Source: Rubellimicrobium roseum
GTDB lineage: Bacteria > Pseudomonadota > Alphaproteobacteria > Rhodobacterales > Rhodobacteraceae
Direction: 5' to 3'
DNA: 40,124 nucleotides
NCBI RefSeq assembly: GCF_006152145.1
Contig: NZ_VDFV01000035.1
Coordinates: 1-40,124, forward strand
This document shows positions 2,167-8,982 of this stretch, piece after piece (position 1 is the stretch's first letter; each line of letters opens with the position of its first letter). The notes beneath the pieces were generated by a model. It saw only the letters and a list, made by a program, of their open reading frames with translations, had not been told where the DNA came from and made no database searches. The translations under genes and the position numbers were made by a program.

Positions 2167-2322
2167 ATGGATTCGCAGGACCTGTTCAAAGAACTGATGA
2201 GGGAGATCTGCGCCCTCTGCGAGACGCGCCAGGCCCCGGCGGCCAACGTCGTGCCGTTCAGTCGCCCCACCCCCCGCGGGTCGCGGCCGAAAGGACCTGC
2301 GCCGCGGGACGGCGCGGCCTAG
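2167..2322 (+). CDS. Small 51-residue protein with a CxxC motif
   Basis: ATG at 2167 is preceded by GAGGGAC (2158-2164), a good ribosome binding site. The 51-residue product begins MDSQDLFKELMREICALC, an amphipathic helix ending in a CxxC pair (CALC), followed by a Pro/Arg/Lys-rich basic tail. Its TAG shares the CTAG at 2319-2322 with the TAG of the convergent sensor kinase. I do not recognise the family. An AT-rich stretch at 2110-2122 lies upstream and may hold its promoter. It could be a small regulator or zinc-binding peptide; this is a guess from the cysteine pair and basic tail. Confidence 0.45.
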   Translation: MDSQDLFKELMREICALCETRQAPAANVVPFSRPTPRGSRPKGPAPRDGAA

Positions 2323-3761
2323 TCCGACGGAGGCAGCGGCACTTCCAGCGCGAAGACGGCCCCCCGGCCCGGGGGGCCGATCTCCAGCCGGCTGTCGAGC
2401 TGCCCCACCAGCGCGGCCACGATCCGCATGCCCAGCCCCCCCGACCGGCGGGGGTCGAAGCCTTCGGGCAGGCCGGGTCCGTCGTCGGCGATCTCGACCC
2501 GCAGCCGGTCGCCGCGCCGGTCCAGGCCCAGGCGGACGGTCCCGCTCCGGCCTTCGGGAACGGCGTACTTGACCGCGTTGATGAGAAGCTCGCTCACGAT
2601 GAGCGCGAGCGGAAGCGCCTGGGCGAGCGGCAGCACCGCCTCGCAGCGCGCCGCGACCTCCAGCGCCACGCGCCCGTCCCCCTGCGCGCTCACCGTGTCC
2701 TCGGCCAGGCGCAGCAGGAAGGCCGGGATGTCCACCGCCCCATGCGCCCCCGAGGCGTAGAGGCTGCGGTGGATGGCGCCCACCACCTCGACGCGCGCCT
2801 GCGCCTCGACGAGCTGGCGGCGCACCTCGGGGCTGTCGCTCCGCCCCGCCTGCATGGCCAGAAGGCCGGCCACGACCTGGAGATTGTTCTTCACGCGGTG
2901 GTTGAGCTCGTAGAGCAGCGCGTCCTTCATCTCGACCGCCTGGGCGAGCCCGGCCTCGACGCGCTTGGCCTCGGTGATGTCGAGGACCGTGCCGATGAAG
3001 CGCACGCCCGTCCGCGCGCCCGGCCCCGGGGCGAAGGTCACGCGCCCCCGCGCGTCCACCCAGCGCACCGTCCCGTCAGGCCAGAGCGCGCGGTACTCGC
3101 TGCGGTAGCGGCCCTCGCCCTCGGGATCGAAGGCCCGCTCCACCGCCTCGAGCACCAGCGCGCGGTCGTCGGGGTGGATGCGCGACATGAACAGCTCGTC
3201 GCTCATCTCCGCCTCGGGCGGCAGGCCGAAGATGGCCTTGCACTCGGCCGACCAGCGCATCTCGCTCGTGGCGGGGGTCCAGGCGAAGGTCCCCACCCCC
3301 GAGGCCTCCTGCGCCAGCCGCAGCCAGGCCTCGGCTTCCCGCGCGGCGGCCTCGGCGGTCTTGAGGTCGTGGACGTCGGTGCAGGTGCCCACCCAGGCGC
3401 GGATCGCGCCGGCCCCGTCGCGATGCGGCGCGGCGCGGCCCTTGAACCAGCGAAAGACCCCGTCGGCGCGGCGCAGGCGGTACTCGACCTCCACGGGGCG
3501 CCCCTCGGCCAGGGCCGCGCGCCAGGCGGCGGAAGTGGCCGGGCGGTCCTCGGGATGCACCACCTCGGCCCAGCCCCCGTCCAGGAGCACGTCGGCCGGC
3601 AGCCCGGTGTAGCCCCGGTAATGGGCGTTGACGAAGACGGTGGGCCCCCCGGGATCGGTCACGAAGACGATCTCGGGCAGCGCGTCGAGCATCGCCAAGG
3701 CCGACGATTCGACCCCAACCTCGCGGACATGGAGTTCGGTGAAAGGCAGCCGCACGTTCAT
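2319..3761 (-). CDS. Double-PAS sensor histidine kinase (HisKA_2 family)
   Basis: 480 residues from the ATG at 3761; an upstream ATG in frame at 3920 exists but its extension looks non-coding. Two PAS domains (about 21-135 and 140-265, each ending in a PAC-type 'GTxxDIxxxK' segment) precede a HisKA_2 dimerisation domain with the phospho-acceptor His288 in 'ELNHRVKNNLQ', and a HATPase_c domain (Asn395 in 'ELLINAVKYA', DDGPG at 426-430, GGLGMR near 441). There are no membrane segments, so it is a cytoplasmic sensor. This family often phosphorylates response regulators of the general stress response (PhyR type) or stand-alone receivers. No receiver gene is adjacent. It is divergent from the dynamin operon. 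Confidence 0.88.
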   Translation of the reverse strand: MNVRLPFTELHVREVGVESSALAMLDALPEIVFVTDPGGPTVFVNAHYRGYTGLPADVLLDGGWAEVVHPEDRPATSAAWRAALAEGRPVEVEYRLRRADGVFRWFKGRAAPHRDGAGAIRAWVGTCTDVHDLKTAEAAAREAEAWLRLAQEASGVGTFAWTPATSEMRWSAECKAIFGLPPEAEMSDELFMSRIHPDDRALVLEAVERAFDPEGEGRYRSEYRALWPDGTVRWVDARGRVTFAPGPGARTGVRFIGTVLDITEAKRVEAGLAQAVEMKDALLYELNHRVKNNLQVVAGLLAMQAGRSDSPEVRRQLVEAQARVEVVGAIHRSLYASGAHGAVDIPAFLLRLAEDTVSAQGDGRVALEVAARCEAVLPLAQALPLALIVSELLINAVKYAVPEGRSGTVRLGLDRRGDRLRVEIADDGPGLPEGFDPRRSGGLGMRIVAALVGQLDSRLEIGPPGRGAVFALEVPLPPSD

Positions 3762-4237
3762 CCCCGACCCCAGCCCCGCCTGAAGCCACTCAAGTCCAAG
3801 CCGACGCCTTGCGTCAATGCATCTGTTGTGGCTTGATCCCGGGCCCCGCGGCGCGCCGGAGCGAACGTTCATCGTTCGCCCTGCGGGCCCAATCCACGAT
3901 TCCGGCGGCGGATTGGCCATCCCGCCTCAAAAAAACACGATTCACGACAAACGCCTTGCAAGGTTCCCGCTCATTTTGGTCGCACCGGTTCCGCTTCGGG
4001 CTTGCCCCTCGCCGGACCGATCCGCCCCGGCCGCCCCACGATCCCGGCCGGCCGCAACCGAGGAGACGACAGACGTGCTGGACGCAAGGCCGAACCACCC
4101 CGGCGCAGGGAGCGCCCGCCGCCCCCGCGGACGGGTCGCGCGACGCGCCGGCCCGCCCGCGACGGCGGCCCCGCCGCGCCCATCCTGCGCTCGCGCATCG
4201 CTCTTCCTGACGGCTTCTCTGACAAAGGCTTGACCCC
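3762..4237. other. 476-bp divergent intergenic region, sensor kinase / dynamin operon
   Basis: No convincing gene is seen here; ORFs across it are short or Arg/Pro-rich shadows. It holds a 19-bp perfect inverted repeat at 3861-3879, inside a wider GGGCCC...GGGCCC pairing (3841-3890), and an A-rich stretch (3928-3950) with two CACGATTC copies (about 3895 and 3937). Promoters for both flanking units must lie here, but I cannot place -35/-10 boxes with confidence. Confidence 0.5.
3861..3879. promoter_or_regulatory. 19-bp inverted repeat, possible operator
   Basis: GCGAACG (3861-3867), 5-nt spacer, CGTTCGC (3873-3879): perfect 7-bp arms. Outer GGGCCC copies at 3841-3846 and 3885-3890 can pair too. 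It contains GAAC-N7-GTTC, but this is not the direct GTTC-N7-GTTC repeat of alphaproteobacterial LexA. It could be a repressor site or an RNA hairpin in a leader. Confidence 0.35.
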
Positions 4238-6316
4238 ATGAACGACCTCGCCTCCAAGAACGGGTTCCAGACCGGGCAGCCCGCCAGCGCCATCACCGGC
4301 CAGCTCCTCGGCATCGGAACCGACCGCCTGACCGACCTCAAGGACGAGAAGAACTCCCTCGCGGACGTCATCTCGGGCCTCCTGTCGGCCGCCGACGACC
4401 GGTCGCGCGACAAGCTGCGCGCGCTCGAGGGCGAGCTGAAGGCGCACTCGGCGACCATCACCGTCGTGGGGCAGGTCAAGGCCGGCAAGACCTCGGTCAT
4501 CAACGTGCTCACGGGGCATCCGGGCTTCCTGCCTTCGGACGTGAACCCCTGGACCTCGGTCGTGACCACCGTCCACGTCAACAAGCCCGCCCCCCGGGGC
4601 AACATCAAGGCGTCGTTCCAGTTCTTCGAGCGCGACGAATGGGAACGCCTGATGCGCGGCGGCGGCCGCCTGGGCGAGATGGCCAAGCGCGCCGGCGCCT
4701 CGGACGAGATGGAGCGGATCGAGGCGCAGCTCCTCGACGTGCGCCGCAAGTCGCAGGAGCGCCTGGGCCGCAACTTCGAGCTGCTGCTGGGCCAGACCCA
4801 CAACTACGACCGCGCCGACACCCAGCTCATCGAGCGCTACGTCTGCATGGGCGACCCCGACGCCATCGACGCGGAATTCTCCAAGCAGGGCCGCTTCGCC
4901 GACCTGACGCGCGCGGCCGACCTTTACATGAGCCTGCCGCAGTATCCCTTCCCGTTCTCGCTCCAGGACACGCCCGGCGTGAACGACCCCTTCCTGATGC
5001 GCGAGCAGATCACGCTCCGCTGCGTCCGGAACTCCGAACTCTGCATCATGGTGCTGTCCGCCGCGCAAGCGCTCAACACCGTGGACCTCGCGCTGATCCG
5101 GCTGCTGTCCACGCTGGACCGCCGCCAGCTCATCATCTTCGTCAACCGCATCGACGAGCTGGAACGCCCCGCCGAGCAGGTGGAGGAGATCCGCGCCTCG
5201 CTCAACGCCACGCTCCAGCGCCACGGCATCGGCAGCGTGACCGACATCGTCTTCGGCTCGGCCAAGTGGGCCGAGGCGGCGTTGACGGGCCGTCCGGGCG
5301 ACCTGCCCGAGGCGGGCCAAGCCGCGCTCCTCGACTGGGCGCGCGTGGCGAACGTCCCGCGCGAGGCGACCGACCCCTGCGAATCGATCTGGCACCTCTC
5401 GGGGATGCCCGCGCTCATCCGCGCCATCGGCGACCGGGTGGCCGAGGGCTCGCCCCACCGGCTGATGCAGAAGGTGCGGCGCGACCTCAAGAACGTCGTC
5501 TCGCAGTCCTACGCCAGCATACTGGGCGAAGGCGGCCCCACGGGCGGCATCGACCGGGTCAACCTGTCCGAGGCCGAGGTGCAGGGCCGCGTCAAGGCGA
5601 TCGTGGCCAGCCTCCAGGCCGAGCTGCACCAGGACAGCCAGGAGATCCTGGCCGAGCTGCGCGCCCGCCTGGGCGCCGCCTCCGAGCAGTTCGTCGAGAC
5701 CACCGTCGCGGCGATGATCCGCCACATCGAGGTCTACGGCATCGAAGGCCAGTGGGAATGCGACCCCATGCGCCTGCGGGTGCAGCTCCGCGCCGCCTAC
5801 ATGGGCTTCGCGCGGTCGATCCGCGCCGTGGCCCAGCGCGTCCTGGGCCGCGCCGCCGACGAGATGACCGGCGTCTACCACGGCCTCCTGGGCGAGCCCG
5901 GCCGCACGCTGCGGCTCGAGCCTCCCATGGTGCCGCAGATCCCGGCCCCCGTGGCCATCGGCAAGACCATCGTCGTCGATCTTCAGGGCGGCTGGTGGAA
6001 GCGCTGGATCAAGCTGCGCCGTGGCGCCCAGGCCTTCGCCGCCGAATACCGCACGCTCATCGCCAACGAGGCGCAGACCATCGTCGCCGAGATCGAGGAG
6101 CAGCAGGTCGCCGTGGTCGAGGCCGCGCTGCGCCGCGCCCTCCAGGAGTTCCTGGACGAGCACGCGCAGACGCTGACCGGCATCGCCAAGGCCGGCGGCG
6201 TGACCCAGGCGGGCCTGCGCTCGGCCGTGGGCGCCGACCGCTACGCCGAGCTGCGCAAGCAGCTCGAGGCCGCCGCCGCGCTTCTCGACGCCGACCTGCG
6301 CGCGGCGTCCGCCTGA
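4238..6316 (+). CDS. Dynamin-family large GTPase (first of operon)
   Basis: 692 residues; ATG at 4238 follows an AAAGG. The GTPase domain shows P-loop GQVKAGKTS (78-86), switch threonines in 'NPWTSVVTTV' (103-112), DTPG (244-247) and an NRID G4 motif (303-306) after 'RRQLIIFV'. The long C-terminal part is helical; near 575-597 is a Trp/Lys-rich segment ('GGWWKRWIKLRRG') that could touch membranes, with no clear transmembrane helix. Bacterial dynamin-like proteins assemble on membranes and use GTP to tether, fuse or reshape them. It opens a four-gene operon with a second, different dynamin-like GTPase 23 bp downstream and two Roadblock/LC7-like genes. The specific function is unknown. Confidence 0.85.
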   Translation: MNDLASKNGFQTGQPASAITGQLLGIGTDRLTDLKDEKNSLADVISGLLSAADDRSRDKLRALEGELKAHSATITVVGQVKAGKTSVINVLTGHPGFLPSDVNPWTSVVTTVHVNKPAPRGNIKASFQFFERDEWERLMRGGGRLGEMAKRAGASDEMERIEAQLLDVRRKSQERLGRNFELLLGQTHNYDRADTQLIERYVCMGDPDAIDAEFSKQGRFADLTRAADLYMSLPQYPFPFSLQDTPGVNDPFLMREQITLRCVRNSELCIMVLSAAQALNTVDLALIRLLSTLDRRQLIIFVNRIDELERPAEQVEEIRASLNATLQRHGIGSVTDIVFGSAKWAEAALTGRPGDLPEAGQAALLDWARVANVPREATDPCESIWHLSGMPALIRAIGDRVAEGSPHRLMQKVRRDLKNVVSQSYASILGEGGPTGGIDRVNLSEAEVQGRVKAIVASLQAELHQDSQEILAELRARLGAASEQFVETTVAAMIRHIEVYGIEGQWECDPMRLRVQLRAAYMGFARSIRAVAQRVLGRAADEMTGVYHGLLGEPGRTLRLEPPMVPQIPAPVAIGKTIVVDLQGGWWKRWIKLRRGAQAFAAEYRTLIANEAQTIVAEIEEQQVAVVEAALRRALQEFLDEHAQTLTGIAKAGGVTQAGLRSAVGADRYAELRKQLEAAAALLDADLRAASA

Positions 6317-6339
6317 CGACCCCCAGAGGAGGGACCGGA

Positions 6340-7761
6340 ATGCCCAGAAGCGATCATCCCCGCCACGTCTCGGACGAGCGTCTGGCCCGGCTTTCCCACT
6401 GGGCCCGGGCCAAGCCCCGCATCGGCCTCATGGGCGAGTTCAGCTCGGGCAAGTCGACCCTGCTGAACCTGCTGATCGGCGAGGACGTCCTGCCCACCAA
6501 GGTCACGGCGACCGAGCTGCCGCCCGTGTGGTTCAGCCACGGCGAGGAGCAGCGCGCCTACTGGATCGACCGTGACGGCCGGCGCCATCCCCTGCCCTTC
6601 GGGGACTTCCGAGGCGTGCCGATGGCGGCGCGTTGCGTGCGGGTCTTCACGCCCTCGCCGATGCTGGAACGCTGCGACATCATCGACACGCCCGGCATCT
6701 CGGACCCCAACCTGGCCGAGGACTCCTGGCGCTTCGCCGTGGGCCAGTCGAACTTCATCCTGTGGTGCACCACCGCCACCCAGGCCTGGCGCGAGACGGA
6801 GCGCTCCACCTGGCTGTCGCTGCCCACGCGCCTGCGCGACAAGAGCGTGCTGGTCGTGACGCGCGCCGACAAGCTCGCCGGGCCCAACGACCGCGAGAAG
6901 GTCATGCGCCGCCTGATGCGGGAAACCCTCGGCCTGTTCGGCGGCCTGGTGATGCTGTCCTCGGTCGACGCCGTGCGCGGGCAGGAGCTGTTCCGCACCA
7001 CGGGCGACATGTCGGTCTGGGACCACAGCGGCGGGCGCGAGCTCGACCGCCGCATCGAGGCGGGCCTCAAGGGCGTGTCGGCCGAGCGGCTCGACCTGCT
7101 CGACCGCTACGTGTCCACCGGGCCCGAGCATCCCTTGGCCGAGCCCGTCCTCGCGCCCGAGCCGGCCCCCGTGCCCCAGGTGGCGCCCGAGCCCGAGGCC
7201 GGCGTGCCCGCCGCGCTGCTGCGGCTCTTCGGCCAGCCCGAGCCGGCCCCCGCCCCGGCCGCGCCCGTGCGGGCCGAGCGCCCCGCCGCGCGCTCGCTCT
7301 GGATCGAGGACGAGGAAGACCAGCCGCTGGTCTCCCTCCCCGCCGAGCCAGACCCGACGCCCGAGCCCGAGCCCGAGCCTGCCACCGAGGCATCGGTCGC
7401 GCCGGACAACGTTCCCGAGGTCCCGGTGATCCCCGTGACCTCGGTGGCGACCGCGCCGGTCGCGTCCGTCGTCCCGGCACAGCCCGCTGCCCTGCCGCTG
7501 GCCGAGGCGGAGCCCGACCCCGTCCAGGCCGTCCTGGCGGCCATGGCCGAGGCGCCGCCCCCGCGCGCGCCGGTCGAGACGCTGCCGAACGCCGTCCGCA
7601 TCTGGCGCGACATCGTGGCCCGCGCCTCGGAAGTTTCGCAGAATGACCCGGTTGTGGCCATGATTGACCAACTTCTCTTCGAATTGTCGCGCGATGGTCA
7701 ACTATCCGCGACTCTGGGCCCGACGCCCACGGAGAGCATCGAGCAAGACCAGGCCGCCTGA
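6340..7761 (+). CDS. Second dynamin-like GTPase with long Pro/Ala/Glu tail
   Basis: 473 residues from the ATG at 6340, preceded by AGAGGAGGGA. The N-terminal GTPase domain has P-loop GEFSSGKST (32-40), switch I 'TKVTATELP' (53-61), DTPG (116-119) and G4 TRAD (174-177). The domain ends near residue 225; then comes ~180 residues of Pro/Ala/Glu-rich low complexity, and a short helical end (about 425-473, 'RIWRDIVARASEVSQ'). It lacks the long helical stalk of the first GTPase, so the two may form a hetero-complex, as paired bacterial dynamins are known to do. The frame is open far upstream because of GC content, but the ribosome binding site fixes this start. Confidence 0.85.
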   Translation: MPRSDHPRHVSDERLARLSHWARAKPRIGLMGEFSSGKSTLLNLLIGEDVLPTKVTATELPPVWFSHGEEQRAYWIDRDGRRHPLPFGDFRGVPMAARCVRVFTPSPMLERCDIIDTPGISDPNLAEDSWRFAVGQSNFILWCTTATQAWRETERSTWLSLPTRLRDKSVLVVTRADKLAGPNDREKVMRRLMRETLGLFGGLVMLSSVDAVRGQELFRTTGDMSVWDHSGGRELDRRIEAGLKGVSAERLDLLDRYVSTGPEHPLAEPVLAPEPAPVPQVAPEPEAGVPAALLRLFGQPEPAPAPAAPVRAERPAARSLWIEDEEDQPLVSLPAEPDPTPEPEPEPATEASVAPDNVPEVPVIPVTSVATAPVASVVPAQPAALPLAEAEPDPVQAVLAAMAEAPPPRAPVETLPNAVRIWRDIVARASEVSQNDPVVAMIDQLLFELSRDGQLSATLGPTPTESIEQDQAA

Positions 7762-7796
7762 CCCGGGGCGGCCTTGAACGGGAGGGGGATCGACAA

Positions 7797-8405
7797 ATGA
7801 AGCTGTTCCAAAGGCTGGGACTCGGGGGCGACAAGAAGCCCGCCTACGAGGAGCCCGAGGAGGACCAGGGCGGGTTCGGCCCGCCGGGCGGCGTCCTGTG
7901 GACGACCCCCGGCGACGTGCTGTCGGACCGGCCCAAGTCGGCGCCTCCCGTGCAGCCGACGATGGCGCCCGCCCTGCCCGAGGCCGACCACGCGGCGCCG
8001 GCGCCGGGCGTGCCGTCGTCGCACAGCGACGCCCTCCAGCGCACCGGCCTGATGTCCACCGACATCGCCGGCACGGCCTTCATCGCGGGCTTCGTGGGCT
8101 CCTGCCTCGTGGACAGCGACTCGGGCCTGCTGCTCGCGGCCGAAGGTGACGGCCGGATCGACATGGAGGCCGCCGCCGCGCTCTACACGCAGGTGGTCAA
8201 GGCCGAGCACGAGGTGATCGAGGTTCTCCAGCTCGAGGACCACATCGAGGACATCCTCATCACCATGCACAGCCAGCTCCACTTCATCCGCCCCCTGGAG
8301 AAGTCGCCCTCGGTCTTTCTCTACGTCGCGCTCGACAAGAAGTCCGCGAACCTCGGCATGGCCCGGATGCAGGTCACCAAGATCGAGAGCAACCTGAAGA
8401 TGTGA
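7797..8405 (+). CDS. Roadblock/LC7-like protein with disordered N-terminal extension
   Basis: 202 residues, start 35 bp after the second GTPase. Residues 1-85 are charged and Pro-rich; residues 86-202 are a compact alpha/beta domain ('IAGFVGSCLVDSDSGL', 'EDILITM', 'FLYVALDKKSANLGMARMQV') that fits the Roadblock/LC7 (MglB-like) fold. By hand alignment this domain is about 72% identical over 117 residues to the next gene product. Roadblock proteins bind small Ras-like GTPases and can act as their activators or scaffolds. Here the only GTPases at hand are dynamin-like, so a role as their regulator or scaffold is an inference. The fold call is by eye. Confidence 0.7.
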   Translation: MKLFQRLGLGGDKKPAYEEPEEDQGGFGPPGGVLWTTPGDVLSDRPKSAPPVQPTMAPALPEADHAAPAPGVPSSHSDALQRTGLMSTDIAGTAFIAGFVGSCLVDSDSGLLLAAEGDGRIDMEAAAALYTQVVKAEHEVIEVLQLEDHIEDILITMHSQLHFIRPLEKSPSVFLYVALDKKSANLGMARMQVTKIESNLKM

Positions 8406-8512
8406 CCGGCGGCGCGGCCCCCCGCGCCCCCTGTCCTGAACGCCCCCCTCCCGCACCGGCCGTCCCGCCTCTCCCCCCCCCAGGCGGACGGTCCCAGCAA
8501 AGGACAACATCA

Positions 8513-8866
8513 ATGTCGACCAACATCGCGGCCACGGCCGACATCGCCGGGTTCATCGGAGCCTGCCTCGTGGACAGCGAATCGGGCCTCATGCTCGCCT
8601 CCGAAGGCGGCGGCAAGCTGGACATGGAGGCCGCCGCCGCGCTCAACACGCAGGTGGTCAAGGCCAAGCTGCAGGCCATGGAGCTGCTCGGCATGGCCGA
8701 CCAGATCGAGGACATCCTCATCACCATGGGCAAGCAGCTCCACATGATCCGGCCGCTGGAAAAGGCGCCGGGCGTGTTCCTCTACGTCGCGCTCGACAAG
8801 AAGGCGGCGAACCTCGGCATGGCCCGGATGCAGGTCAAGCGCATCGAGAGCGGCCTGAGCATCTGA
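8513..8866 (+). CDS. Stand-alone Roadblock/LC7-like protein
   Basis: 117 residues from the ATG at 8513, with AAAGGA at 8499-8504; an upstream in-frame ATG at 8402 would add a Pro-rich stretch and overlaps the previous stop, so I reject it. The protein is a bare copy of the C-terminal domain of the preceding gene ('MSTNIAATADIAGFIGACLV', 'EDILITM', 'RPLEKAPGVFLYVALDKK', 'NLGMARMQV'). The pair is clearly a tandem duplication, and homo- or heterodimers are expected for LC7 domains. It ends the operon; a GC-rich hairpin follows at 8884. Confidence 0.72.
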   Translation: MSTNIAATADIAGFIGACLVDSESGLMLASEGGGKLDMEAAAALNTQVVKAKLQAMELLGMADQIEDILITMGKQLHMIRPLEKAPGVFLYVALDKKAANLGMARMQVKRIESGLSI

Positions 8867-8883
8867 ATCCCCCGTCGCGCGGC

Positions 8884-8917
8884 CCGGGCCGGCTCCGTCG
8901 CCGCGGGGCCGGCCCGG
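8884..8917 (+). terminator. GC hairpin ending the dynamin/Roadblock operon
   Basis: Perfect 10-bp arms CCGGGCCGGC (8884-8893) and GCCGGCCCGG (8908-8917), 14-nt loop, followed by CCGTTTCCC. It sits 18 bp after the last stop of the operon. The T-run is only three bases, as is common in GC-rich genomes. Confidence 0.55.
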
Positions 8918-8982
8918 CCGTTTCCCGGGGTCCGGAACGGCGGGCCGGGGCCGGCGTTGATCCTCCTGAAAGGGGGTCCCCC

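Follow-up and report, generated by a model that had tools for sequence, protein, structure and literature searches.

Operon-paired dynamins are known from Campylobacter jejuni, in which Cj-DLP1 and Cj-DLP2 form a 2:2 complex (PMC6104087, available text), and Roadblock/LC7 (LC7) proteins are known as platforms for Ras-like small GTPases (PMC4316618 and PMC10933270, available text). LeoBC is described as one dynamin split in two (PMC4159319, available text), and double-GTPase systems with a third partner follow a similar plan with another GTPase family (PMC7159879, available text). Here we analyse four genes, designated A to D, of Rubellimicrobium roseum (assembly GCF_006152145.1; genome size 4.85 Mb), which place two GTPases with dynamin-type G domains beside a predicted LC7 protein and a second protein that should share its fold. 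They lie on the 40,124-nt contig NZ_VDFV01000035.1, the whole of which is referred to as the window. We consider it probable that the set is a two-GTPase switch under LC7 control, in which the LC7 proteins serve the GTPase pair as a dedicated regulator or scaffold. This explanation is the best supported because of the predicted fold of D, the joint conservation of the genes and the occurrence elsewhere of B–LC7 and kinase–LC7 fusions. The genes and their parts are as follows.

4238–6316, plus strand: gene A, dynamin-family GTPase of 692 amino acids, G domain and long C-terminal part (Dynamin_N match; profile match to 5owv chain A).
6340–7761, plus strand: gene B, 473 amino acids, dynamin-type G domain (approximately residues 1–255, by homology) and a tail rich in Pro, Glu and Ala (Dynamin_N match; profile match to 5owv chain C).
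7797–8405, plus strand: gene C, 202 amino acids, N-terminal tail of ∼85 residues with an LC7-like domain after it (weak Robl_LC7 match; identity to D).
7857–7937, plus strand: conserved peptide in the tail of C, EEDxGGFGPPGGVLWTTPxDV onward (near-identical at four same-genus loci).
8052–8402, plus strand: LC7-like domain within gene C (72% identity to D).
8513–8866, plus strand: gene D, Roadblock/LC7-fold protein of 117 amino acids (predicted model and Foldseek; mixed profile to PDB roadblocks; weak Pfam match).

A sequence-only reading of this locus had described an operon of four plus-strand genes encoding two dynamin-type GTPases and two LC7-like proteins. Its coordinates and its spacers of 23, 35 and 107 bases (A–B, B–C and C–D) were borne out, and all four appear to be evolving as real genes on the basis of the ratios of nonsynonymous to synonymous differences (pN/pS) in same-genus locus pairs (A 0.26–0.35, B 0.50–0.67 and C 0.40–0.55, three loci each; D 0.17–0.38, four loci). 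One correction to the operon of four is that, at other loci, these genes frequently sit within a longer operon. Contigs of R. rubrum and R. mesophilum carry the same genes. A carries the motifs GQVKAGKTS and DTPG, and B the motifs GEFSSGKST and DTPG. Both exceed the Pfam Dynamin_N cut-off of 27 (43.4 bits for A and 47.2 bits for B), and in profile searches the best PDB matches were 5owv chain A for A (3e-17) and, over the G domain, 5owv chain C for B (7e-21); by chain length these chains are Cj-DLP1 and Cj-DLP2, respectively. A dynamin-type G domain is therefore found in B and in A, where the G1–G4 residues are invariant or nearly so across 92 rows of 600–760 amino acids. Judged by its sequence, A is a dynamin relative. 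Its WW pair at residues 586–587, present in 85–86% of the same rows, could by analogy be a lipid-touching tip, and no transmembrane-like stretch was found in A.

The predicted structure of one B relative, a B–LC7 fusion of 420 amino acids at locus L044 (predicted local distance difference test score (pLDDT) of 80.8), comprises a G domain, one helix (228–251), a low-confidence linker and an LC7 domain. Dynamins (IniA, BDLP and mitofusin) rank first among its Foldseek matches, and a helical stalk was not seen in this one modelled relative. Because of this model, B probably has a G domain of dynamin type but no stalk, and hence is probably not a full dynamin, so that speaking of two dynamins, as had been done from the sequence, was too strong. 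The G domain of the fusion at L269 is also of dynamin type. Some B-type GTPases elsewhere have the P-loop but have lost DxxG, as if they were inactive partners (L045:9325-10743, L097:6538-7665 and L090:14225-15397).

The assignment of the small proteins to LC7 was upheld, by structure prediction for D and by identity for C. The AlphaFold2 model of D (mean pLDDT 91.5, predicted template modelling score 0.85) was built from 30 aligned sequences, including five rows of the protein 'd' considered below, and has the element order a-b-b-a-b-b-b-a, corresponding to the roadblock topology a-b-b-a-b-b-b-(a) (PMC5696360, available text). Foldseek gave 80 PDB matches at E up to 0.001, and the best 50 of these were all Ragulator/LAMTOR, MP1-p14, MglB or Roadblock/LC7 proteins, with template modelling (TM) scores of 0.69–0.81 to the query and E values from 1.6e-6; MglB chains gave TM scores of 0.74–0.80. 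The fold had been chosen beforehand as the point on which the assignment would stand or fall, and D is predicted to fold as a Roadblock protein. On this model D is an LC7 protein, and C should share its fold because the two are 72% identical (84 of 117 residues, in agreement with the earlier hand count). Profile searches of the PDB depended on the alignment: the D sequence alone gave no match, strict D rows reached 7yh1 at an E value of 0.12, and the mixed alignment with 'd' rows reached PDB roadblocks at 1.8e-4, the only set to do so. Robl_LC7 (PF03259) scores of 17.6 bits for C and 17.4 bits for D lie below the Pfam cut-off of 23, which is a score threshold and not a structural feature, and at E up to 0.1 the family matches 14 of 35 aligned D relatives (best 6.2e-5).

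The window genome contains nine D-type genes, two in the set and seven elsewhere. A whole-genome Robl_LC7 search returned two places, both on contig C68 and none in the window; one paralogue on that contig scores 23.1 bits, neighbours in frame included. Three more D-type genes lie inside 2.4 kb on C68 (L032:7446-9777), and the first of these encodes 264 amino acids with an N-terminal part that recurs in L039. Within the tail of C, ∼25 residues are near-identical in the window, L035, L040 and L157 amid variable sequence, and a pattern search of the surveyed loci returned these four same-genus places only. From its conservation this stretch is a possible docking peptide. The beginning of C was also considered as a strong amphipathic helix, but with a hydrophobic moment of only 0.34 it is at best a weak candidate.

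Joint conservation was assessed in 390 Rhodobacterales genomes, with A called at E up to 1e-3 and strict D by a profile at E up to 1e-8. A is present in 135 of the genomes (three of these matches are weak, E ∼1e-4, none of them in strict-D genomes) and strict D in 27, every one of which also has A (hypergeometric 5.6e-14; by genus 13/13 versus 51/139, 7e-7; kinship uncorrected). In 18 of the 27, the window genome included, the distance from D to A or B is at most 1.5 kb. The genes are thus conserved together, and the second condition that the sequence-only reading had named as refuting, a lack of such conservation, does not refute it. Gene order varies, with D after B, D before A or D fused to B, and the link to D thus survives rearrangement. 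Sixty A loci were also picked by hand, mostly one per genus, and after L140 was left out for wrong coordinates all 59 contained B. Conversely, A was found at 80/80 of the B loci read, which are the best 80 of 497 confirmed and are all titled Rhodobacterales or Alphaproteobacteria. The two samples overlap and some places are counted twice (for example, L091 is L227). The mixed D profile gave no match in the reversed reading frames of the 80 B loci and one more. Some A copies are plasmid-borne; A-type dynamin genes were seen on NZ_CP081073.1 and on other Leisingera plasmids of 33–179 kb.

LC7 forms the C-terminal part of B in L044, L045, L094, L232 and L269 (5 of 126 B-type rows). In a tree of the 126 rows L045 falls among second-pair GTPases, apart from the other four, and two fusion events are likely on these sequences, although the L045 branch is long and its placement, as read from the tree, is unsure. 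LC7 is also found C-terminal to what reads as a Ser/Thr kinase in G247, G263 and G423, all genomes of genus g160, and the kinase part in G263 matches the operon-kinase profile (3e-142) as well as Pfam Pkinase. The kinase–LC7 frames of these three genomes lie at L267:6353-7813 and at L260–L262, with no dynamin gene within the 15 kb read at L267. Neighbour counts rest on 76 of 87 loci, the gene caller having found no A in the other 11, window included. Within 7 kb of A they place a kinase at 42 loci, an FHA protein at 38, PP2C at 36, 'd' at 46, strict D at 14 and a protein termed c2 at 45. For the first three families a single representative was checked, and Pfam confirmed it as Pkinase, FHA or PP2C, respectively. 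Most often the genes run kinase, FHA, PP2C, B-like GTPase, A, B, d, c2, and the orders D, A, B, A2, B2 and A, B, D also occur; the window has the short version, with its two LC7 genes. Proteins c2 and n11 were rejected as LC7 (hhalign probabilities 0.07 to 1.5, no Pfam match). A general LC7 identity was likewise rejected for the C-terminal domain of B2, the second B-type GTPase: a profile of six ends gave no support, the strict model finds LC7 there in L045 only, and iterated models find it also in L130 and L097.

Several observations weigh against a dedicated tie between LC7 and the GTPase pair. Most surveyed loci carry, in D's place after B, not strict D but 'd', a protein of ∼127 amino acids: it is found at 44 of the 59 A loci and 64 of the 80 B loci, against 10 and 8 with strict D. 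One further A locus has an iterated-profile match only, and neither protein is found at four A loci (L049, L107, L117 and L129) and eight B loci (L160, L163, L168, L170, L182, L189, L207 and L226); the contigs of L049, L189 and L207 are ∼3.45 kb long and end close behind B. From its sequence 'd' is a candidate divergent LC7 protein, being joined to D by the mixed iterated profile, while a search with the 'd' profile recovers a handful of D proteins (1.8e-4, 2.5e-3, 8.9e-3 and 9e-5). The strict-D hidden Markov model (HMM), however, recovers none of 47 'd' proteins at E≤1, the D–d hhalign probability is only 60 and 15 in two comparisons, and 'd' has no match in the PDB; the D and 'd' HMMs were built partly from the surveyed loci themselves. 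In the remaining nine of the 27 D genomes, neither A nor B lies as close as 1.5 kb to D: five belong to genus g44 (Ruegeria), three to genus g160, in which D is fused to a kinase, and the ninth is G441, which has a pair of D genes. A wider reading of 15–19 kb around D in G441, G130 and G263 again found neither. D is present in four of eight same-genus genomes searched, and the window genome has seven D-type genes beyond the set but a single A match, which implies further uses of LC7. A sample of 349 genomes from the phylum contained D in 30 and A in 8 (A at E up to 1e-15, scoring three candidates in each genome). A accompanies D in the four D genomes that belong to the window's family, whereas the other 26, outside the family, have none at that threshold.

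At 16 D loci read from those 26 genomes, a frame with a P-loop pattern lies within 1.5 kb at seven. The neighbouring GTPase frames of L272, L274, L275 and L276, the four tested, exceed the Pfam Ras cut-off, and the P-loop frame of L281 is presumably TsaE-like. D-type LC7 is thus widespread beyond dynamin genes, partly beside small GTPases, and the tie to dynamins is seen in Rhodobacterales only. B, at E up to 1e-12, was found in 9 of 398 genomes. Eight belong to the window's family; the ninth, G814, comes from the same class, and its locus contains A and B but neither D nor 'd'. Three further arrangements were noted. L272, L274 and L276 share a cassette of an LC7-like gene, a D-type LC7, a ∼200-amino-acid protein and an Arf/Ras-like small GTPase. 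A Streptomyces plasmid (L098:3203-5345) carries two D-like LC7 genes, an annotated LC7 gene and a gene weakly DUF4388-like (below cut-off). The lone D-type LC7 of G130, a Ruegeria genome, is followed, by eye, by response regulator and sensor kinase genes (L266:7849-10522).

Two other features flank the set in the window.

2319–3920, minus strand: divergent neighbour upstream of the set, PAS/HisKA_2 sensor histidine kinase (family match).
8870–8930, plus strand: GC-rich inverted repeat after D (indistinguishable from chance).

The histidine kinase was considered as a member and is probably outside the set, since it is absent beside the set in L035 and L040. Nothing special was apparent in the inverted repeat, which had been read as a closing hairpin: its folding energy of −64.4 kcal/mol (z −0.84) was equalled by 35 of 200 shuffles. 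With no terminator-like site between 3700 and 9100, it was rejected as a terminator as well. The flanks hold, by eye, what we take to be an ImuB-like gene upstream and urease genes downstream. A phage origin of the four genes was dropped, as none of them has a PHROG match at E up to 0.01. The annotations of two Ruegeria plasmids label the GTPases 'dynamin family protein' and the small protein that takes the place of D 'hypothetical protein'.

We propose that A and B would pair via their G domains, by analogy with the Campylobacter pair, and that C and D would form an LC7 dimer, perhaps a C–D heterodimer since both genes are kept. This dimer may sit on B as MglB does on MglA, setting the nucleotide cycle or the place of B, with the tail of C tethering the LC7 platform and the long C-terminal part of A acting at the membrane; we infer a membrane output of the set. 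In B–LC7 fusions the LC7 domain would take the place of the stalk. In other genera the co-encoded Ser/Thr kinase, FHA protein and PP2C phosphatase may feed a phosphorylation signal into the same core. The role of LC7 could be that of a GTPase-activating protein, a guanine nucleotide exchange factor or a scaffold. The interpretation put forward in the sequence-only reading is thus partly supported: its view of the LC7 pair as a dedicated regulator or scaffold is borne out best, by the predicted fold, co-conservation and the fusions, and its membrane-remodelling machine is conjectural.

The same evidence can be read as a signalling switch and not a membrane machine, with B resembling a small GTPase that is read by LC7 and effectors, and A as its partner. 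The missing stalk in the L044 model, the role of LC7 proteins as small-GTPase platforms (PMC4316618 and PMC10933270, available text), the Arf/Ras-like small GTPases that adjoin D-type LC7 at four loci in other families, and the presence of kinase, FHA and PP2C genes near the core at many loci would all fit such a switch. It is harder to reconcile with the long C-terminal part that A retains, including the WW pair as a possible lipid-touching tip (by analogy only), and with the presence of A at every B-selected locus, and we regard it as rather unlikely. LeoA and LeoBC are called Eleos or dynamins in defence lists, and an anti-phage system akin to them, in which the pair guards or reseals the envelope upon infection and LC7 is the trigger, would explain why PADLOC profiles for LeoA (8.8e-14) and LeoBC (9.9e-11) match A, reaching its residues 480–491. 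These profiles match 17 and 18, respectively, of 18 A proteins, and the distribution of A is patchy (135/390), with some copies on plasmids. However, the matches may reflect shared dynamin descent only, LeoBC is a split dynamin (PMC4159319, available text) whereas B is not, and the flanks in the two annotated Ruegeria plasmids are metabolic and regulatory, no defence-island search having been made; we judge this reading improbable. That the LC7 genes are independent neighbours, members of a multi-copy family that landed beside the dynamin pair, seems very improbable. The nine D-type genes of the window genome, two of them in the set, and the D copies elsewhere without A or B nearby would be expected in that case, but not the co-occurrence in 27/27 genomes, the B fusions or the three gene orders.

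If an LC7-controlled GTPase pair is indeed encoded here, control of dynamin-type GTPases would widen the LC7 rule beyond Ras-like GTPases, and LC7 would give bacterial dynamins a directly testable partner. With the B–LC7 fusions, structural studies could start from a single chain, and an input signal is suggested by the kinase, FHA and PP2C genes found in other genera. More tentatively, and with some doubt, we suggest that in Rhodobacterales an LC7 platform found elsewhere beside Arf/Ras-like GTPases (four tested loci) has been partnered with a dynamin-superfamily GTPase in the Rag/Ragulator domain order. The full form (kinase, FHA, PP2C, second B-type GTPase, A, B and candidate LC7) would then be a phosphorylation-gated dynamin system not described before, with LC7 replacing the stalk of one pair member.

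The combination of a GTPase pair with LC7 looks new, and, as the sequence-only reading had supposed, no described system of the same make-up and no bacterial dynamin–LC7 link appeared in the titles or abstract starts among the open-access matches listed, a scope outside which most subscription journals fall. The three open-access papers that combine dynamin, roadblock, bacteria and LC7 all concern MglA/MglB or Myxococcus polarity. The word 'dynamin' does not occur in PMC4316618 or PMC7159879 (available text), nor 'roadblock' in the main text of PMC4159319. LeoA/LeoBC is a bacterial dynamin pair whose PADLOC profiles match A; LeoBC is a split dynamin, whereas B is not. MglA/MglB and the actinobacterial conservons likewise encode LC7 with a GTPase (PMC4316618, available text), but theirs is Ras-like and the GTPases here are of dynamin type. 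The set accordingly falls outside the MglB family, which has a Ras-like MglA partner, and outside the conservons (histidine kinase, LC7, conserved third protein and Ras-like GTPase), because its GTPases are dynamin-type and L035 and L040 do not share the divergent kinase; no DUF742 match was found among six proteins tested. Rag/Gtr proteins with Ragulator share with the B–LC7 fusions a G domain followed by a C-terminal roadblock, which in the window is a separate pair. The likeness is one of domain order only, since Rag G domains are Ras-like and that of the fusions is dynamin-type; in the L044 Foldseek list Rag/Gtr stand lower, with 414–427 columns, root-mean-square deviations of 17–21 and TM scores of 0.24–0.29, in another orientation. 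The text of PMC6104087 compared mentions no LC7 partner, the word itself not having been searched there. Cj-DLP1/Cj-DLP2 (5owv, 5oxf) are the side-by-side pair that the GTPases here resemble, A matching chain A best and B chain C; the present set differs from that pair in that B is a G domain, probably without a stalk, and in the added LC7 genes.

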